From Syntrophobacterales bacterium (GTDB lineage Bacteria > Desulfobacterota > Desulfobaccia > Desulfobaccales > 0-14-0-80-60-11), in contig JAGVAH010000162.1 in the NCBI GenBank assembly GCA_020060385.1, positions 1-32,942 on the forward strand: 32,942 nt of DNA, read 5' to 3'. Position numbers and translations under genes: made by a program. Shown here piece by piece: positions 3,521-32,242 of the stretch (position 1 is its first letter; each line of letters starts with the position of its first letter). The notes below the pieces were generated by a model that saw nothing but the letters and a program-made list of their open reading frames with translations, was not told where the DNA came from and made no database searches.

Positions 3521-3568
3521 AATTGGTTGTTAGCAGAAGCAGTTAATCAACAGCTCCTTTTGGTGGCT

Positions 3569-3606: not shown

Positions 3607-3630
3607 GGGCCCCTTCGTCCGGGGGCCGGT

Positions 3631-11306: not shown

Positions 11307-11358
11307 TGGCTAATATTCTAACTTCCTCCCTTAAATGCGGGAAATGAGGTCTCCAGCC

Positions 11359-15470: not shown

Positions 15471-17189
15471 ATGAACTTCTTGGTGGTGGGAGGATTTTTC
15501 TTAGCAGAGGCCTTACAGCGGCTGGGCCACCGGGTGGTGGACGCGGAGGCCTTTTTGCCTGCCGGCGCCGCGGAGGTGGATTTGCCGGCAGTCCTGGAGC
15601 AGCTGCCGGCCGCGCACCGTCCTGACTTGCTGCTGGTGGTGGAGCGCCTGGGACCTCGGCGCCTGCCCCTCAATCTGGAGCATAGCAAAATTCCCCGGGC
15701 CTTTTATGCCCTGGACCCCCATCTCAATCTCTACTGGCATCAGAAATACGCCTCTGCCTTTGACTGCGTCTTCACCACCCAACGGAGCAGCATGTCCGCG
15801 TTCTGGGGCCAGGGGCGGCCGGTCCACTGGCTCCCCTGGGCCGTGAACCTGGAATCCGTCTTTGACCATGCCCTCCCCCGGACCCTGGATATCACCTTCG
15901 TGGGCCGGCTGGACCAGCGCCGCAAGCGGCGCCTGATCCTGGAGACTTTGCAAAGCCGGTTTGCGGTGCGCATCTGGGGAGACCGCCCGGATAATCAAAT
16001 TAACAACCAGGAGATGGGCCGGATTTACAGCCAGGCCCGGTTGGTGATCAACGAATCCATCCAGGGGGAGGTCAATCTGCGGGTCTTCGAGGCCCTGGCC
16101 GCGGGGGCCATGCTCCTCACCGAAGACGTGGGGTCTAATCTCCAGGGACTCTTCACTCCCGGGGAGGACCTGATCACCTATGGGCCCCAGGACCTCCTGG
16201 AAAAAGCTGCCTACTTTCTCCAGCACGAAGGGGAGCGCCGGGCCATCGCCAAAAGGGGCCGGGAGAGAGTTTACGCCCAACATGACACCCTGGCCCGGGC
16301 CCGCCAGTTCCTGGACTATCTGGGGGAAAGGGACTGGTCCTGGCAGGCTCCGGACCATCTGCATCTGGGACAGACCCTCTGGCATCTTGCCTTCCGGGGT
16401 CTTTACCCCCTGCGCCTGGGGATCGCCCGGGCCCGCTTCCACCTCCAGGAAGCCCTGGGCCGGAATCCCGCCAATGCCTCTGCCTACCTGACTTGGGGCC
16501 AACTGGCCCTGATGTCCGGAGAGCCGGCGGCGGCCCTGGCAGCTTACGATCAGGCCCTGGCCCTGGCCCCTGACTTCCAGATGCAGATCCTCAAGGGGCA
16601 TTTATTGCAGCATCTGGGACGGCAGGGGGACGCCGCCGCAGCCTTTCGCCAGGGACTGAAGCTGGCCCGGGAGGCCCCCTATGAACTGCGCCGGCAACTG
16701 CGGGCCCTGCTCCCCTGGGAGATGTACACCGCGGCCTTCTTCACCGGTTTGGGCCGGCTCTACGAGGCCCAGGGCCTCACCCTGGAGCCGGGATATCCTC
16801 CGGCCGCCGAACCCCGTTTTTTCAACTACGCGGTGGAATATTTTCTCCACGCCCTGAAGCTGGAACCCCGGTACGTACCGGCCCTTAAATCCCTGGGGCG
16901 GCTCCTGGACCGCCACGGCCTTCCCTGCGAGGCCATCCCCTATCTGGAGGCCTGGATGCGGGCCGAGCCGGAAAACCCCGAAGCCCGCTGGCTTTTGGGG
17001 CAGGCCCAACTGAAGGGTTACCAGCCCCGGGAAGGGTTGAAAAATCTGCTTTTGGCCCAGGTCTTGGAGCCGCAGCGGGACCTGATGGACGCCCTGCGGG
17101 TGGTGCCCCTGGCCCCGGCCACTTTAAAAATGCTGCTACCCCAAATTACTCCGGAGGAAATATGCTCCTGCCAGGCGCTCCCCTGCTGA
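15471..17189 (+). CDS. CgeB-like glycosyltransferase with C-terminal TPR repeats
   Basis: 572 aa. Residues 1-290 have a GT-B look: MNFLVVGGFFLAEALQRLGHRV opening, ALDPHLNLYWHQ, DITFVGRLDQRRKRR, then INESIQGEVNLRVFEALAAGAMLLTEDV (about 200-227), the donor-sugar segment of the Glyco_trans_1_2/CgeB group. Residues 310-560 consist of tetratricopeptide-like helices (AYLTWGQLALMSGEPAAALAAYDQAL and others), which usually bind an acceptor protein. The start is ATG 15471; an in-frame stop lies 30 bases upstream and the ribosome site is weak. It is the first gene of the operon and overlaps the next by 28 bases. The sugar and acceptor are unknown. Confidence 0.78.
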   Translation: MNFLVVGGFFLAEALQRLGHRVVDAEAFLPAGAAEVDLPAVLEQLPAAHRPDLLLVVERLGPRRLPLNLEHSKIPRAFYALDPHLNLYWHQKYASAFDCVFTTQRSSMSAFWGQGRPVHWLPWAVNLESVFDHALPRTLDITFVGRLDQRRKRRLILETLQSRFAVRIWGDRPDNQINNQEMGRIYSQARLVINESIQGEVNLRVFEALAAGAMLLTEDVGSNLQGLFTPGEDLITYGPQDLLEKAAYFLQHEGERRAIAKRGRERVYAQHDTLARARQFLDYLGERDWSWQAPDHLHLGQTLWHLAFRGLYPLRLGIARARFHLQEALGRNPANASAYLTWGQLALMSGEPAAALAAYDQALALAPDFQMQILKGHLLQHLGRQGDAAAAFRQGLKLAREAPYELRRQLRALLPWEMYTAAFFTGLGRLYEAQGLTLEPGYPPAAEPRFFNYAVEYFLHALKLEPRYVPALKSLGRLLDRHGLPCEAIPYLEAWMRAEPENPEARWLLGQAQLKGYQPREGLKNLLLAQVLEPQRDLMDALRVVPLAPATLKMLLPQITPEEICSCQALPC

Positions 17190-18586
17190 TCGGCTTCTAC
17201 ACTGAAGGCCTGCCTTTTGACGGGGCCACCATCTACGAGCAGGGTTTGGGGGGGAGCGAATCCGCCCTCTATTTCATGGCCCGGGAATTCGCCCGCCGGG
17301 GCCACCGGGTGCAGATTTTTTGCCGCACTCAACGTCCCGGTCTTTATGAAGGGGTGGAATACCGGCATCTGCGGGAGTTCTCCCAGGCGGTCCAGACGCA
17401 GACCTTCGACGTCTTCATCGTCAGCCGTTTCCCCCAAGTCTTCGCCCTGCCTTTTCAGAGCCGCCTGAAGGTGGTGTGGAATCACGATAATCTGGTGGAC
17501 CCGGAGGCTTACCGCCGGGAAACCTTCCGGGCCGACCTCTTCTTCACCCTGAGCGCCTACCATGAGGCGGAATATCTCTCCCAGTTGCCGGAGCTGGCGC
17601 CCTTTTTCCTGCGCACCAAGAACGGCGTGGACCTGGAAATGGCCCGGCAGGCCCGGGACGCGGTGGCCAAGGACATGACCAAGGTCATCTATGCCTCCCG
17701 GCCCGAACGGGGCCTGGAGTTCCTGCTGCGACATATCTGGCCCCGGCTCCTCCAGGCCCGGCCAGAGATGCGCCTGTTCCTCATGGGCTATGAGGCCCCC
17801 AATAAACCCGGCCAGGAATATATGGTGGAACTGGTGGCCAACGCGCCCCGGACCACGGTGCTGGGGAGCCTGGCCAAGCCGGATTTCTACCGCCACCTGG
17901 CGGAGGCGGCCCTGCTCCTCTATCCCTGTTCCTTCCCGGAGATCAGTTGCATCGCCGCCCTGGAAGCCCAGGCCCTGGGCACCCCCATCATCACCAGCCG
18001 GGATTTCGCGCTGGCGGAAACGGTGGGCATCTCCAGGTATCTGATTTCCGGGCGGCCCGCGTTCCCGGCCTATCAAGAGGCCTTCATCGCCCGGGCCCTG
18101 CTCTACCTGGACGACCAAGACCGTTACCAGCAAGATACCGCCGCGGCCTTGCGGTGGGTGACCGACCATTATTCCTGGAGTCAAATCGCCATGGAATGGC
18201 TGGCAATATTTGCCCGCCATCTGGCCCAAACCGAAGAACGGTTATCCTATTCCTTGTTTCTGGGGGGAGATGGGGGGGCTGCGGCTGCCTATCCCGCGCC
18301 CCCGCCCGCGGAGGTGCGCTACCTCAGCCTGTTGGAGACCCAGCAGGACTTGCTGGCCCTGAAACCCCGGCTGGAGGAGGTGGCCCAGGGGGAGTGGCTT
18401 CTCCTCTTGGAAGACCCGGGCCTCTCCGGGTCTCTGCCTCCCCTCCAGCCTTTGTTGGACGCCAGCAATGTGGATTGGTTCGGCTTTCGCCGCAAGCTCC
18501 AGCCCCCGGGCCAATGGGTGGGGGTGCTTTTCCGGCGGCATTGCCCCCTGCACCCGGACAACGGCCTGGAGGTGGTGATTCCTTAG
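17162..18586 (+). CDS. GT4-type glycosyltransferase
   Basis: 474 aa. A GT-B fold: GLGGSESALYFMAREFARRGHRV near 28-50 (acceptor-side glycine loop), KNGVDL near 160, YASRPERGLEFLL starting the donor domain, and PEISCIAALEAQALGTPIITSRD (about 260-282) with the E-x7-E type donor-sugar motif. Residues beyond about 365 form an extra, unassigned domain (YLSLLETQQDLLALKPRLEEV...). It has a strong ribosome site, GGAGGAAAT, before ATG 17162, inside the end of the previous gene. The predicted reaction is transfer of a nucleotide-activated sugar to a protein or glycan in the cytoplasm. The acceptor is unknown. Confidence 0.82.
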   Translation: MLLPGAPLLIGFYTEGLPFDGATIYEQGLGGSESALYFMAREFARRGHRVQIFCRTQRPGLYEGVEYRHLREFSQAVQTQTFDVFIVSRFPQVFALPFQSRLKVVWNHDNLVDPEAYRRETFRADLFFTLSAYHEAEYLSQLPELAPFFLRTKNGVDLEMARQARDAVAKDMTKVIYASRPERGLEFLLRHIWPRLLQARPEMRLFLMGYEAPNKPGQEYMVELVANAPRTTVLGSLAKPDFYRHLAEAALLLYPCSFPEISCIAALEAQALGTPIITSRDFALAETVGISRYLISGRPAFPAYQEAFIARALLYLDDQDRYQQDTAAALRWVTDHYSWSQIAMEWLAIFARHLAQTEERLSYSLFLGGDGGAAAAYPAPPPAEVRYLSLLETQQDLLALKPRLEEVAQGEWLLLLEDPGLSGSLPPLQPLLDASNVDWFGFRRKLQPPGQWVGVLFRRHCPLHPDNGLEVVIP

Positions 18587-18589
18587 CTT

Positions 18590-19765
18590 ATGCAGACCCT
18601 AAGCCTGTGCATGATCGTCAAGAATGAAGCCGGGAACCTGCCCCGGAGCCTGGCCCCCCTCATGCCTTACGTGGATGAGGCGGTGGTGGTGGATACCGGC
18701 TCCACCGACGGCACTGCGGAACTGGCCGCCAGCCTGGGGGCCCGGGTGCATCACTTTGACTGGGTCTTCGATTTTGCCGCGGCCCGCAATTTTTCCCTGG
18801 ACCGGGCCGGGGGCGACTGGGTGCTGTGGCTGGACGGAGACAACCGCATCCCCGAGGAAGACGCGGCCCTCCTCAAGTCCCTGGCGCAGCGGCAGGGGGA
18901 GGCCATCTTCTGGGCCACCGAAATTGTGGAGCCGGGGGGCGGCCGCCTCCTGCAAAAGCGCGTCTTCCCCCGGCGCCCGGAGGTTCGCTTCCGCTACCGG
19001 GTCCACGAGCAGCTCTGCCATCCCCCGGGTTGGGCCCAGGTCATCACCCCGGTGCGCATCTATCATTGGGGCTATGAGGACCGGGGTCTGCGCCAGGCCA
19101 AGGCCCGGCGCAACCTGGCCATTCTCCTGGCCGAACTGCAGGAACGGCCCGATGATTTCTATCTCCGCTACCACCTGACCCGGCACCATTTCTTTGCCGG
19201 GGAGTTACAAGAGGCCTGGGGCCAGCTCCAGGAAGTGCTGGCCGCCCCCGCTCTCGAGGCCCAAAACCCGGAGATCGCCCGCCATGCCCGGCTCCTGGCG
19301 GCCATTATCCGGGACCGGCTCCAGGACCTGGCCGGGGCCCTCAGGCAATTTCAGGAGCTGGCTGAGCAATACCCCGATTACGGGCTGGCCTGGTACCACC
19401 TGGGGCTCCTCTGCTTCCGCCATAATGATTTCCCCGCCGCGGCCCTGGCCCTGGGCCGGTTTTTGGAGCTGGGCTGCGGCCATTTCTTTCTGGACCAACC
19501 GGAAGAGAAGTTGATCCTGACGGCCCTGTTGACCCGGGCCCAGGCCCTGCGGCGCCTGGACCGCCATGGGGAGGCCGGGGACGCCCTGCTGGAGGCCCAG
19601 AGGCTTTTTCCCCAGCAGCCCGGGGTCTGGCTGGAGACCGCGGTCCTGGCCCGGGACTGCGCCGATTTCGGCAGCGCCCGCCGGGCCCTGAACCACTGCC
19701 TGGCCCTGCGGCCCCACTCCCGGCAGGCCCAGGCTCTGCTGACGGAGATGGAAGGGCTGGCATGA
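18590..19765 (+). CDS. GT2-type glycosyltransferase with TPR repeats
   Basis: 391 aa. The first 180 residues are a GT-A domain: SLCMIVKNEAGNLPRSL, VVDTGSTDGT (34-42), and WVLWLDGDNRI with the metal-binding D82-G-D84. HWGYED near 160 resembles the closing segment of this family. Residues 185-391 are TPR-like helices (YHLTRHHFFAGELQEAWGQL, YHLGLLCFRHNDFPAAALAL), which suggests a protein acceptor or scaffold. It starts three bases after the previous stop, and its stop overlaps the next start (ATGA at 19762). Confidence 0.85.
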   Translation: MQTLSLCMIVKNEAGNLPRSLAPLMPYVDEAVVVDTGSTDGTAELAASLGARVHHFDWVFDFAAARNFSLDRAGGDWVLWLDGDNRIPEEDAALLKSLAQRQGEAIFWATEIVEPGGGRLLQKRVFPRRPEVRFRYRVHEQLCHPPGWAQVITPVRIYHWGYEDRGLRQAKARRNLAILLAELQERPDDFYLRYHLTRHHFFAGELQEAWGQLQEVLAAPALEAQNPEIARHARLLAAIIRDRLQDLAGALRQFQELAEQYPDYGLAWYHLGLLCFRHNDFPAAALALGRFLELGCGHFFLDQPEEKLILTALLTRAQALRRLDRHGEAGDALLEAQRLFPQQPGVWLETAVLARDCADFGSARRALNHCLALRPHSRQAQALLTEMEGLA

Positions 19766-21525
19766 ACATCTGGGAAACCAACCTCCAGGCCCTCAAGGCC
19801 AGGACTCCCGCCGGGGACCTGCTGCCGGACCTCCCGGCCGCGCCCTTTAGGTGGCAGCGGGTCACCCTGGTGCCCGGCCCCCATCCCACCCTGCAGGTGC
19901 CCGGGGAAAAGGGCCGCCCGGTCACCCTCCACAGTCCCCGGGAGGCCTGGAAGGAGGCTGACGTTTTGGCGGCCCGGGCCCCCCGGGCCCCTTCCCGGCC
20001 TTTACTTGCCCTGGGTCTGGGCCTGGGCTACCACCTGCTCAGGCTGCTCCCCCGCCTGGACCCGGAGCAATCCCTGGTCATCGTCGAACAGGACCCGGAA
20101 ATCTTCTGGGCCGCGCTTCACACCCTGGATCTCACGCCCTTGCTCTCCCGGCCCCATACCTGGCTGGTGGTCAATCCCGACGCCAGGGAAGTGGTCAGCC
20201 ATTTGCGGGGCCAACTCCATCTGGGGAACGGCTGCGGCGACCCGGTCCTCTGGGGCCACCCCGCGTCTTTGCGGGCCGCCAACGGCTTCTACCAGGAGGT
20301 GATCGCCGCCTTCCAGGCCCCCCAGGTCCACCCCTCCCGGGCCAGGGGCCTGAAAAAGGAGAAACTGCGGGTCCTGGTGGTGAATCCCGACTATTTCCTG
20401 ATCCCCGAGGTCTCCCAGGCCTTCCAGCAGTTGGGCCATGAAGTGCAGCTCATCCTCTTTGACAAGCGCCAGGATCAAGGGGAGGAGGTGCTGCAGCGCA
20501 TCCTCAAGCGGGTGGGGGACTTTGCCCCGGATTTGGTCTTCACCATTAACCACCTGGGCTTTGACCGGGAGGGCCTGCTGATGGAGGCCCTGAACCGGCT
20601 GCGCCTGCCTTCGGTCTCCTGGTACGTGGACAGCCCGGCCATCATCCTCAACCTCTACGGCGGTCCCAAAAGCGATCTGTCCTATATCTTTGTCTGGGAC
20701 CCCACCTATGTCCCGGAGGTCAGGGCCCTGGGGTTTGCCAAGGTCTTCACCCTGCCGTTGGCCACCGACCCGGACATCTTTGCCCCCCGGCCCGGGGTCG
20801 AGCAGATGCGCTGGCGCACCCAGGTGGCCTTCGTGGGCAATTCCATGATTTCCTCGGTGGCCAAAAAGCTGGAGCGGCTGCCTGCGGCCCCGGAGTTTAT
20901 GGCCCTCTTCCAGCGGCTCCTGGACGCCCTCCAGGGGCAGCCCTACCGCCGCCTGGACCTGCTCCTGGAAGAGGAGGGCCTGGCCGAACATCCCCTCATC
21001 CGGCAAATGCCGTTAAGCGAGCGCACCGACCTGGAGGCCGGGCTCATCTGGGCCGCCACCCGGGACTACCGCCTAAGCTGCGTCCGCCAGTTGGCCCCCT
21101 TTAGGCCCACCATTTATGGGGACCCCGGCTGGCGGGAGCTGGTGCGGACGCCCCCCTTCCGGCTCCACCCGGAAGTCAACTATTTCCAGGACCTGCCGGC
21201 CCTTTACGGTGCCACCGCCATCAATTTCAACGCCACCAGCCTGCAGATGAAGGCCGCGGTCAATCAGCGGGTCTTCGACGTGCCCGCGGCCGGGGGCTTT
21301 TTGCTCACGGACTTTAAAGAGCAGCTGGCCGAAGTCCTGGAACCCGGCAAAGAGTCGGTGTGCTACCACGCCCCGGAGGAGATTCCCAGCCTGGTCCGCT
21401 TCTACCTGGAGCATCCCTCGGCCCGGCGCCGCATCATCGAGCGGGCCCGGACCCGGGTCTTGCAGGAACATACTTACCGCCACCGTATCCAGGAGATGCT
21501 GGCGGTGCTGCGGAGGACCCTATGA
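19762..21525 (+). CDS. CgeB-like glycosyltransferase with Maf-like N-terminus, copy 1
   Basis: 587 aa. The N-terminal 190 residues contain LALGLGLGYHLLRLL (82-96) and LVIVEQDPEIFWAAL (105-119), a Rossmann-type pattern I associate with the N-terminus of Maf flagellin glycosyltransferases. From about 200, LRVLVVNPDYFL and QAFQQLGHEVQLI open a GT-B domain. Later come DSPAIIL, YIFVWDPTY, LPLATDPDIF, and VNQRVFDVPAAGGFLLTDF with EHTYRHRI, the CgeB/Glyco_trans_1_2 C-terminus. It overlaps both neighbours by ATGA. It is paralogous to the 23127 gene; each is followed by a GT9 gene. Confidence 0.78.
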   Translation: MNIWETNLQALKARTPAGDLLPDLPAAPFRWQRVTLVPGPHPTLQVPGEKGRPVTLHSPREAWKEADVLAARAPRAPSRPLLALGLGLGYHLLRLLPRLDPEQSLVIVEQDPEIFWAALHTLDLTPLLSRPHTWLVVNPDAREVVSHLRGQLHLGNGCGDPVLWGHPASLRAANGFYQEVIAAFQAPQVHPSRARGLKKEKLRVLVVNPDYFLIPEVSQAFQQLGHEVQLILFDKRQDQGEEVLQRILKRVGDFAPDLVFTINHLGFDREGLLMEALNRLRLPSVSWYVDSPAIILNLYGGPKSDLSYIFVWDPTYVPEVRALGFAKVFTLPLATDPDIFAPRPGVEQMRWRTQVAFVGNSMISSVAKKLERLPAAPEFMALFQRLLDALQGQPYRRLDLLLEEEGLAEHPLIRQMPLSERTDLEAGLIWAATRDYRLSCVRQLAPFRPTIYGDPGWRELVRTPPFRLHPEVNYFQDLPALYGATAINFNATSLQMKAAVNQRVFDVPAAGGFLLTDFKEQLAEVLEPGKESVCYHAPEEIPSLVRFYLEHPSARRRIIERARTRVLQEHTYRHRIQEMLAVLRRTL

Positions 21526-23120
21526 ACCCCCTGGCGGCCCGGGCAGAAACCAGGGAAATGGCCGCCCCCGGGGCCCTGGGCCTCCGGAGTGCGCCTGCCC
21601 CCCGCCAGATCCTGGTGCTGCAACTGGCCCGTTTCGGAGACCTGCTCCAGACCTGGCCCCTGCTCACCCGTCTGCGCCTGGCCTATCCCGGGGCCCGGCT
21701 CACCCTGATCACCGACCAGCGCCTCCTGCCCCTGCACCCCTTGGGTCCCCAGGTGGACGCGACCCAGGGTTTTGATCTCCTGGGCCTGACCGCCTTGGTG
21801 GAGCAGGATTGGCCGGGGGCTTACCAGCGGGTCGCTTCTCTGCTTAAGGACCTCAGGGCCCGGGAGTTCGACCTGGTCTTCAACCTCAACTTTTCCCGGA
21901 TCAGCCTCCTCCTCACCTACCTTTTGGGGGCCCCGGCCCAGGGTTTTCTGCCCGGGGCCGGAGGCCGGGAATTTTTCCGGGGGCCCTGGCTGGCCTGGAT
22001 TTACAGCCTGGTGCACGCCCGCCGGTTCAACCGCTTCCACTTAACGGACGTCTTTCGCCATTTGGCCCCGGAACCGGCGGTGGCAACCGCGCCGCCAGCC
22101 CTGGCGGCCTGCCCCGGGGGCGAGCCGGTGATCGCCCTGCAACTGGCCACCCGCCATGACCGGCGCACCTGGCCCCTAAAATACTTCACCCGCCTGGCCG
22201 AATTTTTTGCCAGCCAGATGCAGTCTCGCGTTCTGCTCTTGGGTACCAAGGCCGAGCAGGACCTGGGGGAAAGGCTCCGGGCCGCGCTGGCCCCCCCGCT
22301 CCGGGAACGGGTGACCAACCTCCAGGGCCAAACCGGCCTGGCGGAATTGGCCGCACAGCTTAAAGAGACCCACTTCCTGGTGAGCGGCGACACCGGCACC
22401 CTGCATCTGGCCACGGCCCTGGGCGTCCCAACCCTGGCCCTCTTCCTGGGCCCGGCCCTCTGCTTCGAGACCGGCCCCTACGGCTGCGGCCACTACGTCC
22501 TCCAGGCCGAGCCTCCCTGCCACCCCTGCCTGGAAGCCTCCTCCCCCTGTCCGGCGGCAGGCCAGGTCTGCCTGGAGATGCTGCCGCCCCTGGCGGTGGC
22601 CCAACTGGTGGCCGGCCTGCTGCTGCAGGGGGCCGCGCCCCCGGATCTCCATCTGCCCGCGGGCGCCCGCCTCTACCGCAGCCAACTGGACGCTTTCGGG
22701 GTTTTTTATCAGCCCCTGGGCCAGGCGCCCCCCCGGTTCCAGGACCTGGTGGGCCTGGCCTACCGCCAGGCCGGCGTCTGGCTGGCGGAGGCAGGAACAG
22801 AATTTGGGGGAGGGGGCCAGGGGTCCGTAGCACAGGGGTCTCGTCTGTGGACCTCAGACTCCTCCCCCAAACCCCCTCCCCCAACCCAATATGGGGGGAG
22901 GGAAAAACTGGCTTCTGAGGTTATAGAACCCTTGGAGGTGCTGCTGACCACCTTGAGATATGGGAAAGGGTCCGTGGAGATACCGGAAGTGGCCGCGGCC
23001 CTCAGGCCCCTCCTGGCCTTCCAGGGGGAAATGCAGCGCCAGGGCCAGGAACATCTGTTTTTCGGCGTAAAAAACGTTTTTACCGCCCAACTGCAAAGCT
23101 GGCTAAATCAAACGAGGTAA
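21522..23120 (+). CDS. GT9 heptosyltransferase-like protein with in-frame insertion, copy 1
   Basis: 532 aa. The start is ATG 21522, in an ATGA overlap with the previous stop and with GGAGG upstream. ILVLQLARFGDLLQTWPLL (30-48) is the N-terminal glycine/aspartate motif of heptosyltransferases. IALQLATRHDRRTWPLKYF and SGDTGTLHLATALGVPTLALF (about 287-307) are the donor-site segments. A Cys-rich stretch (EPPCHPCLEASSPCP) follows. Beyond 370 lies a helical extension shared with copy 2. Residues about 425-463 are encoded by 22796-22910, a repeat-like palindromic insertion that keeps the frame (Gly/Ser/Pro-rich, FGGGGQGSVAQ). Heptosyltransferase activity is not proven; the acceptor may be a protein glycan instead of lipopolysaccharide. 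Confidence 0.82.
   Translation: MNPLAARAETREMAAPGALGLRSAPAPRQILVLQLARFGDLLQTWPLLTRLRLAYPGARLTLITDQRLLPLHPLGPQVDATQGFDLLGLTALVEQDWPGAYQRVASLLKDLRAREFDLVFNLNFSRISLLLTYLLGAPAQGFLPGAGGREFFRGPWLAWIYSLVHARRFNRFHLTDVFRHLAPEPAVATAPPALAACPGGEPVIALQLATRHDRRTWPLKYFTRLAEFFASQMQSRVLLLGTKAEQDLGERLRAALAPPLRERVTNLQGQTGLAELAAQLKETHFLVSGDTGTLHLATALGVPTLALFLGPALCFETGPYGCGHYVLQAEPPCHPCLEASSPCPAAGQVCLEMLPPLAVAQLVAGLLLQGAAPPDLHLPAGARLYRSQLDAFGVFYQPLGQAPPRFQDLVGLAYRQAGVWLAEAGTEFGGGGQGSVAQGSRLWTSDSSPKPPPPTQYGGREKLASEVIEPLEVLLTTLRYGKGSVEIPEVAAALRPLLAFQGEMQRQGQEHLFFGVKNVFTAQLQSWLNQTR
22796..22910. repeat. Palindromic repeat inserted in frame within GT9 gene
   Basis: TTGGGGGAGGGGG (22804-22816) and CCCCCTCCCCCAA (22872-22884) are perfect 13-base arms. 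Further CTCCCCCAA and GGGGGGAGGG stretches flank them. The composition is like the intergenic CCCTCC/GGGAGG repeats near 11161-11210 and 6380-6415 and unlike the rest of the gene, but the frame stays open. Confidence 0.6.
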
Positions 23121-23126
23121 GAATAG

Positions 23127-24920
23127 ATGAGTCTTTGGGCAAAGAATCTGGAAGTATTACAAAAAGTGTCCCCGGACCTGGCCGCCACCCTGGCCGCCAC
23201 CACTATTCCCGAGGATCACCAGGTCCGGCCCTCCCGTTCCGGGCCCCCCTGCCTGCAGGTGGGGAAGCAGCGCCTCACCTCCTCCTATGATCCGGTGAAG
23301 GAAGGCCAGGACTGGGCCCAGGCCCTGGAGGGGGATGCCGCTGAGCCCCTGGTGGTCTTCGGCCTGGGACTGGGTTATCACTTGCTGCCCCTGTTGGACC
23401 GGGAGGGGCCCCTGTGGGTGGTGGAACCCTCGGCCCCGGTTGCCCGCCTGGCCCTGGAGCACCAGGACCTCACGCCGCTCCTGGCCAGGGGCGGCCTGCG
23501 CCTGGGCTCCGATTTCACCGGCCTCCCCCGGAGCGCCCGCCTGGCGGACCACGGTCCCACCCGCCGCCTCCATCCCGGCCCCTACCGCCGCCTGACCCGG
23601 TTTCTGGCTGGCGAGGGCGGGGAGCTGGGGCCTTTGCGCATCCTGGTGGCGGGTCCCCTTTACGGGGGCTCCCACCCCATCGCCCGCTACACGGCCCGGG
23701 GCTTCCAGCAGTTGGGGCATGAGGCGGAACTCCTGGATTTCGCGCCCTTCTATGCCGGTTATCAGGCCATGGCCCGGGTCACCAAGGACCAGCGGGCCGA
23801 GCACAACCTGAAGCAAGGGCTCCTGGGCCTCCTGGGAGAGACCCTCCTGGCCCGGGCCCGGGATTTTAAGCCGGACCTGGTCTTTGCCCTGGCCCAGTCC
23901 CCCCTGGCCCCGCCCCTCCTCAAGGCCCTGAAAGCGGAAGTTCCCCTGGTGGCCTACTGGTTCGTGGAGGATTTCCAGGTTCTCACCTACTGGCAGGACC
24001 TGGCCCCGGGAGTGGACGTCTTCTTCACCCTGCAAAAGGAGCCCTTCTTTTCCGAACTGAAGCGCCGGGGGGTGATGAATTACGCCTGCCTGCCCCTGGC
24101 CGCGGACCTGGAGGCCTACCACCCCCTGGCCTTAAGCCCGGAAGAAAAACGCCGCTTTGGCTCGGCCCTCTCCTTTGTGGGCGCGGGCTATTACAACCGC
24201 CGCCAGTTTTTCCAGGGTCTCACTGACTTCGATTTCAAGATCTGGGGGTCGGAATGGCAGCTGCACTCCCCTTTGGGCCTGCATATCCAGGACCAGGCCG
24301 CCCGGGTGTCGGAAGAGGACTGCACCAAGATCTTCAATGCCACCCGCATCAATCTCAACCTCCATTCCTCCCCCTTCCATACGGGGGTCAATCCCCAGGG
24401 GGACTACCTCAACCCCCGGGTCTTCGACCTGGCCGCGTGCGGCGCTTTCCAGCTGGTGGATTGGCGCTCCCAGCTCCCCGATTTCTTCACCCCGGATAAG
24501 GAACTGGCCACCTTCACCTCCCTGGCCGAGGCCCGGGAAAAGATCGCCTATTTCCTGGCCCATGAAGACGAGCGGCAGCGCCTGGCCTGGGCCGCCCGGG
24601 AGCGGGTCCTGAAGGAGCACACCTATGCCCGCCGCCTGGCCGCGGCCCTGGAGATTATCCAGGACTTCCATCCCCGGACCCTCCCCTGCCGCCAGTCCCA
24701 GGCCCCGGCCGTGGCCCCCCCCCGGGCCTCCTTCCCGGCGGATCACCCGGTCCAGGCCCTGTTGGCCCGCCTGCCAGCCGACGCCGCCCCTGATCTGCAG
24801 GGCCTGGTGCAACAGATTAGAGAAAGCAGTGAACCCTTGACCGAACCGGAAGCCATTCTCTGGTTTCTCGATGAGTTCCGCCGCAAGATACACCGCCCCG
24901 GCGTCAATGGAGGGTGCTGA
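23127..24920 (+). CDS. CgeB-like glycosyltransferase with Maf-like N-terminus, copy 2
   Basis: 597 aa. The layout is as in the 19762 gene: MSLWAKNLEVLQ start, VVFGLGLGYHLLPLL (76-90), WVVEPSAPVARLAL, then a GT-B part (LRILVAGPLYGG, ARGFQQLGHEAELLDF), YWFVEDFQVL, LPLAADLEAYHP, and the C-terminal NPRVFDLAACGAFQLVDWR and EHTYARRL segments of the CgeB group. A histidine/asparagine-rich stretch (INLNLHSSPFHTGVNPQGDY) precedes it. A proline/alanine tail of about 80 residues is extra. GAGG lies about nine bases before ATG 23127. It starts six bases after the previous gene and its TGA overlaps the next ATG. Confidence 0.8.
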   Translation: MSLWAKNLEVLQKVSPDLAATLAATTIPEDHQVRPSRSGPPCLQVGKQRLTSSYDPVKEGQDWAQALEGDAAEPLVVFGLGLGYHLLPLLDREGPLWVVEPSAPVARLALEHQDLTPLLARGGLRLGSDFTGLPRSARLADHGPTRRLHPGPYRRLTRFLAGEGGELGPLRILVAGPLYGGSHPIARYTARGFQQLGHEAELLDFAPFYAGYQAMARVTKDQRAEHNLKQGLLGLLGETLLARARDFKPDLVFALAQSPLAPPLLKALKAEVPLVAYWFVEDFQVLTYWQDLAPGVDVFFTLQKEPFFSELKRRGVMNYACLPLAADLEAYHPLALSPEEKRRFGSALSFVGAGYYNRRQFFQGLTDFDFKIWGSEWQLHSPLGLHIQDQAARVSEEDCTKIFNATRINLNLHSSPFHTGVNPQGDYLNPRVFDLAACGAFQLVDWRSQLPDFFTPDKELATFTSLAEAREKIAYFLAHEDERQRLAWAARERVLKEHTYARRLAAALEIIQDFHPRTLPCRQSQAPAVAPPRASFPADHPVQALLARLPADAAPDLQGLVQQIRESSEPLTEPEAILWFLDEFRRKIHRPGVNGGC

Positions 24921-26689
24921 TGCGCATTCTGGTCATCAATCTTATGCGTCTGGGGGATCTGGTCCAGTGTTCTCCCGTGCTCCGCTCTTTGCGGCGCCGC
25001 TATCCGGAGGCCCAGATCACCCTGGTGGTCCAGGATGTCTTCCAGGAAACCGCCAGCTTGCTTCCCGGCCCCGACCGGCTGGTGTCTTTTCCCGCCCTGC
25101 AACTGGCTCCCCTGGTGGATGCGGGCGGGGATTGGGTCCAGGGCTATCAGCTGGTGGCGGATTGGCTGCGGACCCACATTGACTCTCCCCCGGACCTGGT
25201 GGTCAACCTCACCCCCGACTTTATGGGGGCTCTCCTCTCCCACCTGAGCCGGGGCCGGGAGGTGCGGGGCTTCACCCTCAGCCCCAGCCGCGCCTTTTTT
25301 ACCCAGCCGGCCTGGATGAGTTATTTGATGATCATTTCCCGGGCCCGGAAGGCCAACCCCTTTAACCTGGTGGATGTCTTCCTCAAGGCCGCGGGCCTGG
25401 ACGCGGACGGGGAAGGCCTGGCAGTGCAGATCCCCACCGCCGTCCAGAGCCAGGCTGCAAGTTTCCTGGAGGGAGTGCCCCTGGCCCCGGCCACCTCCCT
25501 GGTGGGGCTGGTGCCCGGCGCTTCCCAGCCCCAACGCTGCTGGCCCCCGGAAAGATACGCCCAGGTGGCCGGCACCCTGCTGGCGGCCCGGCCCTGCCAT
25601 TTTTTTATCTTCGGCAACCAGAAGGAAAGGCCGTTGGGGGAGAAAATCGCCTCCCTCCTGCCTCCGGGAACCGCGACCCTGTGCACCGGGGGGACCTCCG
25701 TCCCCTTCCTGGCCGCCTTGCTGTCCCAGCTCCATCTGTTGATCACCAACGACACCGGCCCCATGCACCTGGCCGCGGCGGTGAAGACCCCGGTCCTGGC
25801 TTTCTTCCTGGCGGGGGCCCGGGTCCAGGACACCGGGCCCGTGGGGGAAGGCCATCTGGCCCTGGAACCCCGGATCGACTGCCATCCCTGCCACTACCCG
25901 GACTCCTGCTCCCTGTTCAAATGCCACGAGGCCTTTTCTCCGGAGGGGGTGGCGGCCTGGGCCCTGCACCTCCTGGAAAAGAAACCCCTCACCCCCATCC
26001 CCGACGCCGCCCACTGGCGCAGTCTCCAGGTCTATCATTCCACCTGGGACCCCACGGGCCACCATGCCCATCTGCCCCTCATCCGCCGCCCCCTGGACCG
26101 GAAACACTTCTGGACCCTGGTCCACCGGGCGGTCTGGCCCCGTTTCCTGGACGGGGCCGGAGCGCCCGGGGATGCCCTGGAACGGTGGCTCTTGGAAATT
26201 ACGGGCAGCCACTTCCTGCCCCCCGGGGACGATTTGGGATTGCCCGGCGGCCACCGGGCCTTGACGGAACTGGTGGATCTCACCGCCCAGGGCGAGAATC
26301 TGGCCCGACGGCTTATTGACATCCCCCGCCAGCGCCGCTCTCCCTCTTTCCTCTGGCAACAGGCGGAGGCCATCCGCAGCATCGACCCCAAATTGCACCG
26401 CTTGCTGGTGGGTTACCCCGAAATCGCCTCCTTTATTGAGTTTTATTTCCAGGAACAGCGGAGCAATGATGGGGACACCTACGTCAATATTTTGGCGCGT
26501 CAATTGGCCGAAACCTACCATAACCTGCACCAGGCCGGCAAAATTTGCCTGCAAGTAATGGAGGAGTTTATCCGTTATTCCCCGGTATTATCCCATCATA
26601 TCAGCATGTTATCCGACATGGCACATCTTGTGCAGCAAGGATCGCTAACGGACACCTATCAACTTACCGAGGTGGCGTCATGCAAGTAA
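24920..26689 (+). CDS. GT9 heptosyltransferase-like protein with C-terminal extension, copy 2
   Basis: 589 aa. The start is ATG 24920 (TGATG overlap; GGAGGG upstream), not the GTG six bases earlier. RILVINLMRLGDLVQCSPVLRSL (2-24) and TNDTGPMHLAAAVKTPVLAFFL (about 276-297) are the GT9 motifs; VPGASQPQRCWPPERYAQV is the donor-side loop. DCHPCHYPDSCSLFKCHEAF is a cysteine cluster also seen in copy 1. Residues 350-589 form a long helical extension of unknown role, beginning LQVYHSTWDP, which has a counterpart in copy 1. No signal peptide or membrane segment is seen, so it is cytoplasmic. The gene overlaps the next by 10 bases. Confidence 0.82.
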   Translation: MRILVINLMRLGDLVQCSPVLRSLRRRYPEAQITLVVQDVFQETASLLPGPDRLVSFPALQLAPLVDAGGDWVQGYQLVADWLRTHIDSPPDLVVNLTPDFMGALLSHLSRGREVRGFTLSPSRAFFTQPAWMSYLMIISRARKANPFNLVDVFLKAAGLDADGEGLAVQIPTAVQSQAASFLEGVPLAPATSLVGLVPGASQPQRCWPPERYAQVAGTLLAARPCHFFIFGNQKERPLGEKIASLLPPGTATLCTGGTSVPFLAALLSQLHLLITNDTGPMHLAAAVKTPVLAFFLAGARVQDTGPVGEGHLALEPRIDCHPCHYPDSCSLFKCHEAFSPEGVAAWALHLLEKKPLTPIPDAAHWRSLQVYHSTWDPTGHHAHLPLIRRPLDRKHFWTLVHRAVWPRFLDGAGAPGDALERWLLEITGSHFLPPGDDLGLPGGHRALTELVDLTAQGENLARRLIDIPRQRRSPSFLWQQAEAIRSIDPKLHRLLVGYPEIASFIEFYFQEQRSNDGDTYVNILARQLAETYHNLHQAGKICLQVMEEFIRYSPVLSHHISMLSDMAHLVQQGSLTDTYQLTEVASCK

Positions 26690-27288
26690 CCCTCAACGAC
26701 CAATCTTTGCCGGTGGATCTCTCCCACCTGCGCAACCTGGAAGAAGCCCTGCTGGAGCTCAACGAAAGATTCATTCCCTCCGGGGAACAGCTCTTTCAAG
26801 TGCAGGTCAACGGCCAATTCTTTACGGAACGATATCCCCGGGAGTCCCGCTACATCACCCTGGGCGAGGTTGCCACCCTGGATATCAAGACGGTTACCGA
26901 CCAGGACCTGGCCCGGGGCATCCTCAGTGATGCCGCGCTCAAGGTGGAAACCCTGGTCCAGGCCCTGGAAAAGGGCGCGGCCCTCTTCCGCCTGGCCGCC
27001 GAAGATGAGGCCAACCACTATTTCGCCCAGGTGCTGGAGGCCCTGCGTTGGATGCTCCAGACCGGCGAAGGGGCCTGCCAGGTCCTGGACGTGGACATGG
27101 CGCACACCTGTTCTCCCCAGATCGGGGACGTCTCCGATTTCCTCAAGCGCTTTCAGGACCTCCTGGAAGAGATGCTCCAGGTTTACGAAGAAGAAGACTA
27201 CATCCTCCTGGCGGATTTGATGGAGTACGAACTCCTACCCATGGTGCAAGAATGGCAAAAGATACTATCACACCTCTCACGCCATTAA
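26680..27288 (+). CDS. Unknown protein at end of glycosyltransferase operon
   Basis: 202 aa. The start is ATG 26680, after GAGGTGG and within the end of the previous gene; an ORF start at 26545 would overlap that gene far more. The N-terminal 75 residues appear beta-rich (MQVTLNDQSLPVDLSHLRN, FQVQVNGQFFTERY). The rest is helical and acidic, with DMAHTCSPQIGDVSDFLKRFQDLLEEML in the centre. No catalytic motif, signal or membrane segment is seen. Position before a FliT/FlgN-like gene suggests a flagellum- or export-related helper, but the family is unknown to me. Confidence 0.7.
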   Translation: MQVTLNDQSLPVDLSHLRNLEEALLELNERFIPSGEQLFQVQVNGQFFTERYPRESRYITLGEVATLDIKTVTDQDLARGILSDAALKVETLVQALEKGAALFRLAAEDEANHYFAQVLEALRWMLQTGEGACQVLDVDMAHTCSPQIGDVSDFLKRFQDLLEEMLQVYEEEDYILLADLMEYELLPMVQEWQKILSHLSRH

Positions 27289-27608
27289 CCCGGAGTCGGG
27301 TGGCCCTGCTGCAAGACATCACCCGGGCCATCACCGCCGCAGTGCTGCAGGACGACCTGGGGCGGGCCGTCTCCCTCCTGGAGCAGCGCCAGACGGTGCT
27401 GCAACACCTGGACTGGTCAAACCCCGCAGAAGACCTGGGCGACAGCCTGGAAAGACTGTGGGACCTGGACCGCTCCCTCATGGCCTTCTGCCAATCCTGG
27501 CGGCAAGCCCTGGAGGAACGCCTGCAAACCCTCAACCTCAGCCATTACCTGCGGCAGAAATACGCCCCGGCACACCACCAGGCCCGGTACGTGGATCTGC
27601 ATAAATAA
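27252..27608 (+). CDS. Small helical protein, possibly FliT/FlgN-type chaperone
   Basis: 118 aa from ATG 27252, inside the end of the previous gene (37-base overlap). The sequence is almost entirely amphipathic helix (LLQDITRAITAAVLQDDLGRAVSLLEQRQTVLQ, then LERLWDLDRSLMAFCQSWRQALEERLQTL), with a basic tail. Length and pattern match flagellar export chaperones such as FliT or FlgN, which bind FliD or hook proteins, but sequence motifs in that group are weak. It is the last gene of the operon, followed by a terminator. Confidence 0.5.
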   Translation: MAKDTITPLTPLTRSRVALLQDITRAITAAVLQDDLGRAVSLLEQRQTVLQHLDWSNPAEDLGDSLERLWDLDRSLMAFCQSWRQALEERLQTLNLSHYLRQKYAPAHHQARYVDLHK

Positions 27609-27731: not shown

Positions 27732-29150
27732 CTACCACCCATACGTCAGGTAGTCATGGATGGAGTTGGAGGCCAGACGGCCCGCGCCCATGGCCAGAAT
27801 GACGGTGGCGGAGCCGGTGACGATGTCGCCCCCGGCCCAGACCCGGGGTTTCATGGTCTTGCCGGTCTTGGGATCGGCGACGATATAGCCCCATTTATTC
27901 AGGGCCAGGCCCGGGGTGCTCTTGGTGAGCAGCGGGTTGGAGCCGGAGCCGATGGCGATGACCGCGGTGTCGATTTCCACGGTGTACTCGGAGCCCTTGA
28001 TGGGCACGGGGCGCCGCCGCCCGGAGGCATCGGGCTCCCCCAGTTCCATCTTCAGGACTTCCACGCCGGTGAGCCGGCCAGTGGCGTCATCGCCCAGGAA
28101 GCGCGTGGGGTTGTTGAGGAGCAGGAACTCCACGCCCTCTTCCTCGGCGTGGTGGACTTCCGCGGTCCGGGCGGGCAATTCGGCCATGGAGCGCCGGTAG
28201 ATGATATAGGAATGGTCCGCGCCCAGGCGCAGGGCGGTGCGGGCGCAGTCCATGGCCACGTTGCCGCCCCCGAAGGTGGCCACGCTCTTGCCTTTGACGA
28301 TGGGCGTGTCGTAGACGGGGAATTCGTAGGCCTTCATCAGGTTGGAGCGGGTCAGGTACTCGTTGGCGGAGTAGACGCCGATGTAGTGCTCCCCGGGGAT
28401 CTTCAGGAACACGGGCAGGCCCGCGCCCACCCCCAGAAAGACGGCGTCGAAGCGTTCCAGCAATTCGTCCACGGTCTCGGAGCGGCCGATGACCGCGTTC
28501 ACCTCAATGGTGGCCCCCATGCGTTCCAGGAAATTACACTCCTGGAAGACGATGGCCTTGGGCAGGCGGAATTCCGGGATGCCATAGAGCAGCACCCCGC
28601 CGGGGCCGTGCAGGGCCTCAAAAATGTGGACGTCATGGCCCTTGAGGAGCAGGTCGCCGGCCACGGTCAGGCCCGCGGGCCCCGCGCCCACCACCGCCAC
28701 CTTCTTGCCGGTGGGGTCGGCCTTGGGGGGCAGGATCTGCTTGCCATGCTCCCGCTGGTAGTCGGCCGCGAAGCGCTCCAGGTTGCCGATGGCCACCGGC
28801 TCGTCCTTCTTGCCGAGAATACACAAACCTTCGCACTGCACTTCCTGGGGGCAGACCCGGCCGCACACCGCGGGCAAAGAGTTTTTCTCCCAGAGATTGC
28901 GGATGGCGGCTTCAAACTCCCCTTCCTTGATATGCTTGATGAATCCGGGGATATCAATCTCCACCGGGCAGCCCTGTTTACAGCGGGGGTCTTTGCACTG
29001 AATGCAGCGCTCCGCCTCTTTCATGGCCAGCTCCGGGGTGTAGCCGTAGGGCACTTCCTCGAAATTGCGGCGCCGCTCGTTGGCGGGCTGCTCCGGCATC
29101 TTCTGCCTGGGGATCTTTTCTTTTTTAGGGGCTTTGACTTCTTCCGACAT
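27732..29150 (-). CDS. nfnB: NfnB-like (glutamate synthase small-subunit type) NADPH oxidoreductase
   Basis: 472 aa. The N-terminal iron-sulfur domain has C49-x2-C52-x4-C57-x3-C61 and C96-x3-C100-x5-C106-x3-C110. VAVVGAGPAGLTVAG (151-165) binds FAD; FGGGNVAMDCARTALRLG binds NADPH; WAGGDIVTGSATVI closes the flavin site. Length fits GltD/NfnB. With the adjoining NfnA-like gene it should form NfnAB, which couples NADPH, NADH and ferredoxin by flavin-based bifurcation; a sulfide dehydrogenase-type SudA role is an alternative. The start is ATG 29150 with GGAGAAGG upstream, 42 bases after nfnA. It ends before the bidirectional terminator. Confidence 0.9.
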   Translation of the reverse strand: MSEEVKAPKKEKIPRQKMPEQPANERRRNFEEVPYGYTPELAMKEAERCIQCKDPRCKQGCPVEIDIPGFIKHIKEGEFEAAIRNLWEKNSLPAVCGRVCPQEVQCEGLCILGKKDEPVAIGNLERFAADYQREHGKQILPPKADPTGKKVAVVGAGPAGLTVAGDLLLKGHDVHIFEALHGPGGVLLYGIPEFRLPKAIVFQECNFLERMGATIEVNAVIGRSETVDELLERFDAVFLGVGAGLPVFLKIPGEHYIGVYSANEYLTRSNLMKAYEFPVYDTPIVKGKSVATFGGGNVAMDCARTALRLGADHSYIIYRRSMAELPARTAEVHHAEEEGVEFLLLNNPTRFLGDDATGRLTGVEVLKMELGEPDASGRRRPVPIKGSEYTVEIDTAVIAIGSGSNPLLTKSTPGLALNKWGYIVADPKTGKTMKPRVWAGGDIVTGSATVILAMGAGRLASNSIHDYLTYGW

Positions 29151-29192
29151 TATCCTTCTCCTCCTGGCTGGTGTGCCTTCAGGGGTAATTTC

Positions 29193-30050
29193 TTAGCTGC
29201 AACAGGAGCATTTCCCGCCGCCGTGGCATTCCTTGAACTGGTCGTAGGAGACCTTTTCCTCCACCATGTAGGAGCGCAGGCGCAGGTCCAGTTCGTCCCA
29301 ATCGACTTCGTGGCCTTCGAACTCGGGCCCGTCCACGCAGGCGAACTGCATCTTGCCTTCCACCTTCACCCGGCAGCAGCCGCACATGCCGGTGCCGTCC
29401 ACCATGATGGGGTTGAGGCTCACCAGGGTTTTGACGCCAAATTCCTTGGTGACCTTGCAGCAGAACTTCATCATGGGCACGGGGCCGATGCACACGGCCA
29501 GTTTGATGTCTTTGTCCTTTTCCAGGGTTTCCTTGAGCTTGTCGGTGACGAAGCCCTTATGGCCGTAAGTGCCGTCGTCGGTGCAGATCATCATCTCGTC
29601 GGACGCGGCCTTCATCTTGTCTTCCAGGATGAGGAGGTCCTTGGAGCGGGCGCCGATGACGGAATAGACAAAATTGCCTATCTGCTTCAGGCCCCGGGTG
29701 ATGGGGTGCAGCACGGCGATGCCGGTGCCGCCGCCCACGCAGATGACTTTGCCCACCTTCTCCAGGTGGGTGGGCTGGCCAAGGGGGCCGATGACGTCTA
29801 TGTAGCCCTGACCGACCTGCAGGGTCTTGAACAGGGCCGTGCTCTTACCCACCACCATGTAGATAATGTTGATCAGACCCTTGGCCGGATCGGTATCCGC
29901 CATGGTCAGGGGGATGCGCTCCCCCTTTTCGTTGGCCCGGAGGATGACGAACTGCCCGGGCTTGGCCTTGGCCGCGATCTTGGGGGCCTTGATCCAGTTG
30001 CTGATAATGGTCCCCTGGGCCATTTCCTGCCGTTCCACTATCTCAAACAT
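29193..30050 (-). CDS. nfnA: NfnA-like ferredoxin-NADP reductase subunit
   Basis: 285 aa. The start is ATG 30050 (GGAGAGG upstream); a longer frame to 30104 runs into AT-rich leader. The N-terminal FAD domain includes GQFVILRANEKGERIPLTM (about 32-50). ICVGGGTGIAVLHPI binds NAD. DGTGMCGCCRVKVEGKMQFACVDGPEF holds the four cysteines of the [2Fe-2S] centre, as in PyrK/NfnA/SudB proteins. The extreme C-terminus, ECHGGGKCSCCS, is an extra cysteine-rich tail. It pairs with NfnB downstream to form the bifurcating transhydrogenase. A CRP/FNR-type palindrome lies about 130 bases upstream. Confidence 0.9.
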   Translation of the reverse strand: MFEIVERQEMAQGTIISNWIKAPKIAAKAKPGQFVILRANEKGERIPLTMADTDPAKGLINIIYMVVGKSTALFKTLQVGQGYIDVIGPLGQPTHLEKVGKVICVGGGTGIAVLHPITRGLKQIGNFVYSVIGARSKDLLILEDKMKAASDEMMICTDDGTYGHKGFVTDKLKETLEKDKDIKLAVCIGPVPMMKFCCKVTKEFGVKTLVSLNPIMVDGTGMCGCCRVKVEGKMQFACVDGPEFEGHEVDWDELDLRLRSYMVEEKVSYDQFKECHGGGKCSCCS

Positions 30051-30177
30051 ACGCGCCTCTCCTCGATTCGTATAATTGTTTAATTTTTCCCGTATCTTTT
30101 CCACAGGCCCTTTTCAAGCCTGCCTTTCTCACCCTCCATAACCGAGAGTTTTTATCACGGCTCCGGGGCAAGAATCA

Positions 30178-30193
30178 AGTGATAAATATCACA
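30178..30193. promoter_or_regulatory. CRP/FNR-type palindrome upstream of nfnA
   Basis: AGTGATAAATATCACA contains GTGATA-aa-TATCAC, a 6-2-6 inverted repeat that fits TGTGA-N6-TCACA spacing on the minus strand (TGTGATATTTATCACT). TTTATCAC near 30151 is a further half-site. It is located between fhs and nfnA, upstream of nfnA on its strand. A regulator of the Crp/Fnr group, such as HcpR in sulfate reducers, is a reasonable guess. Confidence 0.5.
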
Positions 30194-30227
30194 AAAGCGA
30201 TTTTCAGTCCCCCAATACTTTCTCCCA

Positions 30228-30269
30228 TAAAAAAACCGGCTTCCGGAGAGGGCCTCCGGAAGCCGGTTT
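30228..30269 (-). terminator. Rho-independent terminator of fhs
   Basis: On the minus strand, AAACCGGCTTCCGGAG pairs perfectly with CTCCGGAAGCCGGTTT around a short loop, followed by a run of seven T. It lies about 40 bases after the fhs stop and separates fhs from nfnAB. The small palindrome GGTGGGC-tgg-GCCCACC (30283-30299) lies just before it. Confidence 0.9.
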
Positions 30270-30310
30270 GGACATGCAGTAAGGTGGGCTGGGCCCACCC
30301 TAAATGTTAC

Positions 30311-32095
30311 TTAGAACAGGCCAAACACCGTGCCTTTCTTGACATCCACGTCGACGCGGCGGAAGGCCGGGTCGGAGCCGGTGCCGGGCATCAGGGAGAT
30401 GGCGCCGCACACCGGGCAGATGAACTTGGCGCCGCCGTAGACCAGGAAGTCCCGGACGGGCAGGGTCCAACCCTTGGGAGTCCCTTTGATCGTGGGATCA
30501 TGGGTCAGGGACAGGTGGGTCTTCACCATCATGGTGGCGTATTCGTTATACTTGGGATCCTTCTCGAACTTCTCCGCCTTGGCATTGGCTTCGGGGGCAA
30601 AGGCCACGCCGTCCGCGCCGTACACTTCCTTGGCGATGAGTTCGACCCGCTTCCGCAGCGGCAGTTCGTTGGGATAAAGGAACTTGAACTGGGGCTTGTC
30701 TTTGCAGGCATCCATGACCGCGTCGGCAAATTCCAGGGCGCCTTCGCCGCCAAACTGCCAGTGCTTGGACACGGCCACCCGGGCCCCGGCGGCCTCACAG
30801 GCCCGACGGATACAATCATGCTCTTCCGGGGAATCGAAATGGAAGGAGTTGATGCACACCACCGGGTTGATGCCGGCCTTTTTGATGGTTTTGACGTGGT
30901 GCACCGCGTTCTCCACGCCCTCTTCCAACCATTTCATGGTCTCTTTGCCGGCCGAGAAGTATTCTTTGGGCACGGGTTTTCCCGGAGGACACGGCAGGGC
31001 CCCGGCCTTGACACCATGGTGCTTCAGGCCCCGGACGGTGGCGGTGAGGACCGACACGTTGGGAATGAGGCCGCTGAAACGGCATTTGACGTTCCAGAAC
31101 TTCTCAAAGCCGATGTCCGCGCCGAATCCCGACTCGGTGATATGGTAATCGAACAGCTTGAGGCCGATCTGGTCGGCGACGATGGAGCTTTGTCCCACGG
31201 CGATGTTGGCGAAGGGGCCGGCGTGCACGAAGACGGGCTGCTTCTCCACGCTCTGCATGAGGGTGGGGTTGATGGAGGGCAGCATCCAGGCGGTCATGGC
31301 ATTACCCACTTCCAGGTCGCCGGTGGTGACGGGGTTGCCCTTCTTGTCGTAGCAGACCACCATGTTATTCAACCGGGTCCGCAGATCTTCCAGAGAGGTG
31401 AAGACCGACAGAATGGCCATAACCTCGGAAGACACGGCGATGCCGAAGGAGGACTTCATCATGAAGCCGTCCATCTTGCCGCCCATGCCGATGATGATGT
31501 GGCGCAGGGCCTGGGCGCAGTAGTCCATGATCCAGCCCATTTCGAAGTTTTTCGGATCGATGTTCAGGCGCTTCAGGTTCCGTTTGGCCAACTGGGCGTC
31601 GTCATAGTTGAACTCGTGCTGCAACCGGGAGGTGGCGGCCACCATGGCCAGGTTATGGGCGTTCATGATGTTGTTGATGTCGCCGGTGAGGCCCAGGGAG
31701 AACTCAGTCATGGGGATGAGCAGCGAAATACCGCCGCCGGCCGCGGTGCCTTTGACGTTCATGGTGGGGCCGCCGGAAGGCTGGCGGAGAGCGCCGCCCA
31801 CGTTCACTTTCCGGGCGCCCAGGCCCTCGATGAGGCCCATGGAGGTGGTGGATTTGCCTTCCCCCAGGGGAGTGGGGGTGATAGCGGTGACTTCGATGTA
31901 GTAGCCGTCGGGTTTGCTCTTCAGGCGCTCCAGGCACTTCATGTAGTCGACGCGGCCGATTTTCTGGCCGTGAGGGATGCGCTCATCTTTGGGGATTTCC
32001 AGCTTGTCGCACATCTCGTCAAAAGGAATCATCTCCGCTTCGGCGATTTCTGCAATCTGCCAGTCTTTTTGTTTTACCGGATCATACTTCGCCAT
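30311..32095 (-). CDS. fhs: Formate-tetrahydrofolate ligase
   Basis: 594 aa. It joins formate to tetrahydrofolate with ATP, the second step of the methyl branch of the Wood-Ljungdahl pathway (or its reverse in acetate oxidation). [16 protein letters not shown] (73-88) is the ATP loop. [19 protein letters not shown]-like and [18 protein letters not shown], and [12 protein letters not shown] are conserved family segments. [13 protein letters not shown] near the end is the usual C-terminal stretch. The length fits the longer form of the enzyme in anaerobes. AAGGAGG lies about nine bases before ATG 32095. The promoter is at 32243-32271, the terminator at 30228-30269. It is divergent from the metV-like gene. 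Confidence 0.97.
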
Positions 32096-32242
32096 AAACC
32101 AAGGCCTCCTTATGGTTATGTAATTACTGGTTAATTCCCGGCTAGCCGCAACCCGCCGGGTTTGTTACAGAGTTGCCCCTTGCGGGGCTCGCCTCTGGCA
32201 GGGCTCCCGCCAGGGCTCATACTTTTTTTCACATAGACCCCC

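Follow-up and report, generated by a model that had tools for sequence, protein, structure and literature searches.

A putative flagellin glycosylation cassette joining a Maf-like N-domain to CgeB- and GT9-type glycosyltransferases in Desulfobacterota

The locus and its genes

The window, meaning the whole stretch of DNA that was analysed (32,942 nucleotides), is an entire contig (C155) of a Syntrophobacterales bacterium whose genome (G000) comprises 4.15 Mb in 175 contigs. Nine genes on the plus strand occupy positions 15471-27608, and the same block of genes is found in named relatives, which are Desulfobacca and related MAGs and which place the genome among the Desulfobaccales. The block begins with three transferase genes assigned by Pfam: gt1 (15471..17189), encoding a CgeB-type transferase with TPR and found only in some relatives; gt2 (17162..18586), encoding a GT4-type transferase upstream of A1; and gt3 (18590..19765), encoding a GT2 transferase with TPR, the 3′ end of which overlaps the start of A1. 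Two gene pairs follow, A1 (19762..21525; 587 aa) with B1 (21522..23120; 532 aa), and A2 (23127..24920; 597 aa) with B2 (24914..26689; 591 aa). The A proteins combine a Maf_flag10_N domain with DUF3880 and Glyco_trans_1_2, a CgeB-like GT-B unit, to which A2 adds approximately 85 C-terminal residues; the B proteins are GT9 transferases with a Cys4 cluster and a C-terminal extension that is short in B1 and approximately 200 residues long in B2. The last gene of the cassette is the conserved orfC (26680..27288; 202 aa), and the block ends with a gene for a FliT-like flagellar chaperone (27300..27608), which scores 25.9 bits against PF05400, just under the cut-off of 29.5, and which is also found downstream of orfC in relatives.

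The earlier note had described two A-B pairs of equal order and domain layout, separated by overlaps or tiny gaps, and both points are borne out by the open reading frames, all on the plus strand, and by Pfam. The stop codon of A1 and the ATG of B1 (at 21522) share a 4-base overlap, B1 and A2 are 6 bases apart, A2 and B2 overlap by 7 bases, and B2 and orfC by 10.

Elsewhere in the window, two adjoining plus-strand genes (8830-10812 and 11335-13371) encode C10-family peptidases with Peptidase_C10, a Spi inhibitor domain and CarboxypepD_reg, and their identical architecture apparently reflects a local duplication. On the minus strand, genes for a Fer4_5 Fe-S membrane-type protein, a DUF362 protein and a DUF6599 protein adjoin at 528-4644 and may form a redox unit. 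Minus-strand metabolic genes adjoin the nine-gene block after 27608; those for a glutamate-synthase-like FAD/Fe-S oxidoreductase (27732-29150) and a formate-tetrahydrofolate ligase (30311-32095) converge on the glycosylation operon, and the long plus-strand open reading frames at 27756-30083 and 30179-32134 were rejected as spurious mirrors of these two genes. A phage origin was likewise rejected, there being a single weak match only.

The A proteins

The Maf-like N-terminus proposed in the earlier note is upheld by several comparisons. PF20157 (Maf_flag10_N) matches A1 with 39.7 bits and A2 with 27.2 bits, against a curated cut-off of 23.5; in A1 this match covers residues 80-130, within a region of Maf homology that spans approximately residues 1-200. 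Profile-profile comparison (hhalign) with the N-termini of canonical Mafs, all confirmed to carry PF01973, aligned 183 columns of the A1 N-domain and 165 of the A2 N-domain, in both cases with an E value of about 1e-25, which is beyond chance; the resemblance to Maf covers some 170-185 residues. In a search of all PDB sequences the best match of both A profiles was 5mu5, which is presumably the Magnetospirillum Maf and is labelled as uncharacterized in its PDB record, and which a canonical Maf matches through its central domain. The A1 profile also has weak matches to catechol methyltransferases in the same region as the Maf match.

The CgeB-type catalytic part proposed earlier is likewise recovered in both proteins, with PF12996 (DUF3880) and PF13524 (Glyco_trans_1_2) above their curated cut-offs. 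The MptE-like catalytic domain of Maf (PF01973, Maf_flag10) was not found in A1 or A2 by Pfam, and the helical C-terminal domain of Maf is absent from both, A1 ending with its CgeB domain; the possibility that the B extension or orfC supplies this missing part of Maf was tested by hhalign profile comparison, with a negative result. Alignment of the two pairs, as the earlier note had proposed, gives A1 and A2 an identity of 28% in residues 1-359 and of 34% in the C-terminal 110, and B1 and B2 one of 31% over 417 residues, levels that mark the similarity among the A and among the B proteins as old. A stand-alone CgeB protein that lacks the Maf N-domain (contig C72, 17930-19048; 404 aa) is also encoded in this genome; its identity to the A1 catalytic half is 38%.

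The B proteins

Both B proteins match PF01075 (GT9) above the cut-off, B1 with 84.8 bits and B2 with 75.6 bits. Cysteine clusters are present in them (CHPCLEASSPCPAAGQVC; CHPCHYPDSCSLFKC), and the four conserved cysteines lie at a place similar to that of the iron finger of TibC/BAHT, as they do in most of the ordinary GT9 proteins compared. Because 10 of 13 other GT9 proteins carry such a cluster, it is not special to B and was rejected as a distinguishing feature; an R-x-GD motif is found in all GT9 proteins compared, B included. Residues 1-361 of the B2 model (mean pLDDT 86.6) match the folds of 3tov (Z 34), WaaF (1psw, Z 30) and WaaC (Z 28), and the match to TibC (Z 20 over 274 residues) begins only at residue 95 of TibC.

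The earlier description of B as a GT9 protein with a cysteine cluster and a long helical extension holds for the fold and the cluster, and in part for the extension, which is short in B1 and which in B2 (residues ~360-560) consists of a beta-hairpin as well as helices. Similarity between the two extensions is detected by hhalign over the first ~52 residues and not over the remainder.

Recurrence of the A-B pair

Named genomes were scanned for the A2 family, which yielded 302 relatives, and the best 80 of these were retained for neighbourhood counts. A GT9 gene lies directly downstream of A in all of these best 80 of 302 (median gap -0.5 bp), and in 75 of the 80 the GT9 protein has a C-terminal extension. 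The loci are distributed over at least six phyla, including Desulfobacterota, Nitrospirota, Nitrospinota, Calditrichota and Latescibacterota. In addition, at five loci GT9 and CgeB are naturally fused in one polypeptide; one such fusion, of 1190 aa in Latescibacterota, has the order GT9–Maf_N–DUF3880–CgeB. The A-B pair is thus a genuine unit, and the dedicated GT9 partner and the recurrence of the pair in other genomes, both raised in the earlier note, are confirmed by the 80 closest relatives and the five fusions.

Some loci encode long multidomain proteins. A GT9–CgeB–radical SAM fusion of 1394 aa is encoded at L115:3747-7931, and a protein of similar length (1414 aa) with GT9 and CgeB at L153:14080-18324. 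In Nitrospirota and Nitrospinota, the gene immediately before A2-B2 (L107:6751-9870 and L136:6618-9992) encodes a long protein with two CgeB GT-B parts, a methyltransferase and TPRs, perhaps a glycan-methylating partner.

Origin of the two pairs

The equal order and layout of the two pairs had suggested to the earlier note that the module arose by tandem duplication, a history that would be compatible with any functional reading. It could also be argued from the fact that B1, B2 and their kin form one GT9 clade apart from most GT9 proteins of the same genomes (support 99 including one basal GT9, 93 without it), and from an AU test in which one common origin for the fused N-domains is not rejected (p = 0.23, with a poorly resolved N-domain tree). 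Against it, A1 and A2 fall into separate clades that each span several phyla, that of A2 being widespread; forcing the CgeB domains of A1 and A2 together against other CgeB domains is rejected (AU p = 0.00026, with few outgroups and some long branches); and a smaller CgeB tree places A1 together with CgeB-only proteins and with the stand-alone protein from contig C72. Furthermore, B1 lies outside the B2 clade, the B1/B2 split predates the phyla now sampled, and A1 occurs in Nitrospirota with no GT9 gene after it. The trees and AU tests therefore reject a recent or simple tandem duplication, and duplication of one module within the lineage is improbable. Since outgroups are few and some branches long, a very old duplication is possible, other copies having lost the N-domain afterwards.

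Linkage to flagellar genes

The flagellin genes of the source genome are on contigs other than that of the window, and the flagellar linkage of the window hence rests on its relatives. In one of them (G012), a single strand carries flagellin–fliD–fliS–gt3–A1–B1–A2–B2–orfC, gt3 lying between fliS and A1 there as well, and in another (G054) the order is flagellin–flaG–fliD–fliS–A2–B2–orfC. Other genomes have A–B–orfC–flagellin–fliD–fliS or A–orfC–flagellin. The adjacency to flagellin genes that the earlier note had suggested looking for is thus found, and the distribution of A1 and orfC agrees with it. Of the genomes of the order, 15 of the 16 with flagella have a full or near-full A1, compared with none of the 13 without flagellin (Fisher p = 2e-7), the lone flagellated exception being an 84% complete genome with a fragment at a contig edge. 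Within the phylum, orfC is found in 34 of 198 genomes, and all 34 have flagellin, compared with 116 of 198 overall (hypergeometric 1.2e-9); because the genomes are phylogenetically related, both p-values overstate the significance. The orfC gene lies no more than 20 kb from a flagellin gene in 16 of its 34 genomes. Among the 80 named loci (best 80 of 302), only 19 have flagellin, fliD or fliS within 10 kb, and the one Nitrospirota locus inspected is a large glycosylation cluster without any of the three. PF01973, and with it canonical Maf, is absent from the whole source genome at E <= 0.001.

Transferases of the GT9 and CgeB types are frequent in loci for LPS and capsule, GT2 and GT4 transferases are among the neighbours in the window, and the weak catechol methyltransferase matches of A1 overlap the Maf match. 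The pairs could on these grounds be ordinary surface-polysaccharide or LPS transferases that lie near flagellar genes by chance, with an N-domain that is a generic nucleotide-binding Rossmann fold. This reading is unlikely, however, as the presence of the cassette tracks flagellin, synteny with fliD-fliS recurs in several phyla, the B clade stands apart from most GT9 proteins of the same genomes, and the N-domain resembles Maf along its full length. The A-B-orfC cassette very probably decorates the flagellum.

orfC and its association with canonical Maf

The orfC gene usually closes the A-B cassette, and its product has no Pfam family match. The structure model (pLDDT 93) consists of a ubiquitin-like N-terminal domain and a four-helix bundle, the first of which is missing from Nitrospirota versions. 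Fold searches (Foldseek, VIA) gave no significant match, the best E being 0.11 and the best Z, 12.6, lying in the range of chance helical-bundle matches. Homology to FliS or FliT was rejected, with an hhalign probability below 1% against both.

In three genomes (G218, G143 and G080) orfC accompanies a canonical Maf, in the order Maf(PF01973)–orfC–flagellin–fliD–fliS, which is the same slot that A–B–orfC occupies elsewhere. In a further genome (G044) the gene for a canonical Maf is followed by one that encodes the Maf N-domain only (L170:10328-11062) and then by that for a B-type GT9, next to flagellin. From this protein, the A proteins and the Latescibacterota fusion it follows that the Maf N-domain can be coupled to PF01973 or to CgeB, stand on its own next to a GT9, or be part of a GT9-CgeB fusion. 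At two other loci (L230 and L231; family f41, putatively Geobacter-like) a B-type GT9 and orfC form a pair with no A gene adjoining, away from flagellin.

These arrangements bear on the identity of the acceptor, which might be another exported flagellar or surface protein, such as the cap protein FliD, the hook or a pilin. In many loci fliD and fliS are as near as flagellin, and the operon in the window ends with a FliT-like gene, known FliT homologues being chaperones of FliD. An acceptor of this kind is nonetheless distinctly unlikely, given that the Maf-orfC pair lies immediately upstream of flagellin in three genomes and that flagellin is the substrate of canonical Mafs (PMC11339370).

A proposed function for the cassette

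The probable function of the cassette is that of a putative cytoplasmic flagellin O-glycosylation system, in which the Maf N-domain would dock the acceptor and the catalytic part would be interchangeable. Inactivation of maf abolishes flagellin glycosylation and motility, and the roles of the N- and C-terminal domains of Maf are described as unclear (PMC11339370). A role of the N-domain in acceptor recognition is suggested by the fact that this domain is constant while the catalytic engine varies.

Flagellin would be modified in the cytoplasm, ahead of its export. The Maf-derived N-domain of A may dock on flagellin, so that the CgeB-type GT-B half could attach or extend a sugar, and B, kept near through A and its extension, would add a further residue, with a nucleotide-activated heptose or a similar sugar as the candidate donor; A and then B are predicted to act on surface Ser/Thr residues. 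The orfC product could be a dedicated adaptor or chaperone that passes flagellin to the enzyme with the Maf N-domain, with a FliT-like protein encoded nearby. Because the two pairs belong to different subfamilies, both ancient, two linkages are suggested rather than redundancy, and the pairs probably assemble distinct parts of a single glycan; the earlier note had proposed successive sugars or two different acceptors, and either may apply.

In the literature searched, which did not extend to subscription papers and preprints, there was no mention of PF20157 or of CgeB in connection with flagellin glycosylation. The earlier note had not known the combination of Maf-like, CgeB and GT9 components as described. 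The cassette is widespread, and apparently has no published description. Whether the Maf N-domain is a portable flagellin-docking module, retained together with orfC while the engine is exchanged (Maf/PF01973, CgeB GT-B or a separate GT9), is evenly balanced on present evidence. If it is, flagellin glycosylation would include a general modular system spanning at least six phyla, and orfC would be a glycosylation adaptor of a new class, one that canonical Maf uses too. For many uncultured members of the Desulfobacterota, Nitrospirota, Nitrospinota and Calditrichota, the cassette predicts the mode of flagellar decoration, and separable docking parts of this kind would be of use in protein glyco-engineering. 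The role of the Maf N-domain is directly testable here, since it is no longer attached to the catalytic domain of Maf and is fused instead to a transferase of another class, in an unchanged slot.

Comparison with known systems

The cassette is probably a form of the known Maf type of flagellin glycosylation with a different transferase and a new conserved component, orfC. Canonical Maf, the motility associated/accessory factor, consists of PF20157, PF01973 and a helical C-terminal domain (structure, PDB 5mu5). A1 and A2 share with it the N-terminal Rossmann-like domain; the A-B cassette shares, in relatives, the position beside flagellin-fliD-fliS; and orfC is a partner common to some genomes with canonical Maf. 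In contrast, A has a DUF3880/CgeB GT-B unit in place of PF01973, together with a GT9 partner, and lacks the helical C-terminal domain. The catalytic half of A resembles CgeB transferases (PF13524, PF12996), yet A is fused to a Maf N-domain and linked to flagella, neither of which is true of the stand-alone CgeB of contig C72.

Among GT9 enzymes, B shares the core fold (Z 28-34), the R-x-GD motif and the Cys4 cluster with WaaC (2h1h), WaaF (1psw) and the Veillonella GT9 protein 3tov, and differs from them in its conserved C-terminal extension, its clade apart from most GT9 proteins of the same genomes and its position directly after A in 80 of 80 named relatives (best 80 of 302). TibC, which has the GT9 fold, is a proven protein heptosyltransferase with an ADP-heptose donor and a four-cysteine iron finger (PMC4358343). 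B resembles TibC/BAHT in its GT9-like core and four-cysteine motif, whereas the N-terminal beta-barrel of the latter is absent from the B2 model, which opens with the GT-B lobe (strand at residues 4-8), and the context of B is flagella while that of TibC is autotransporters.
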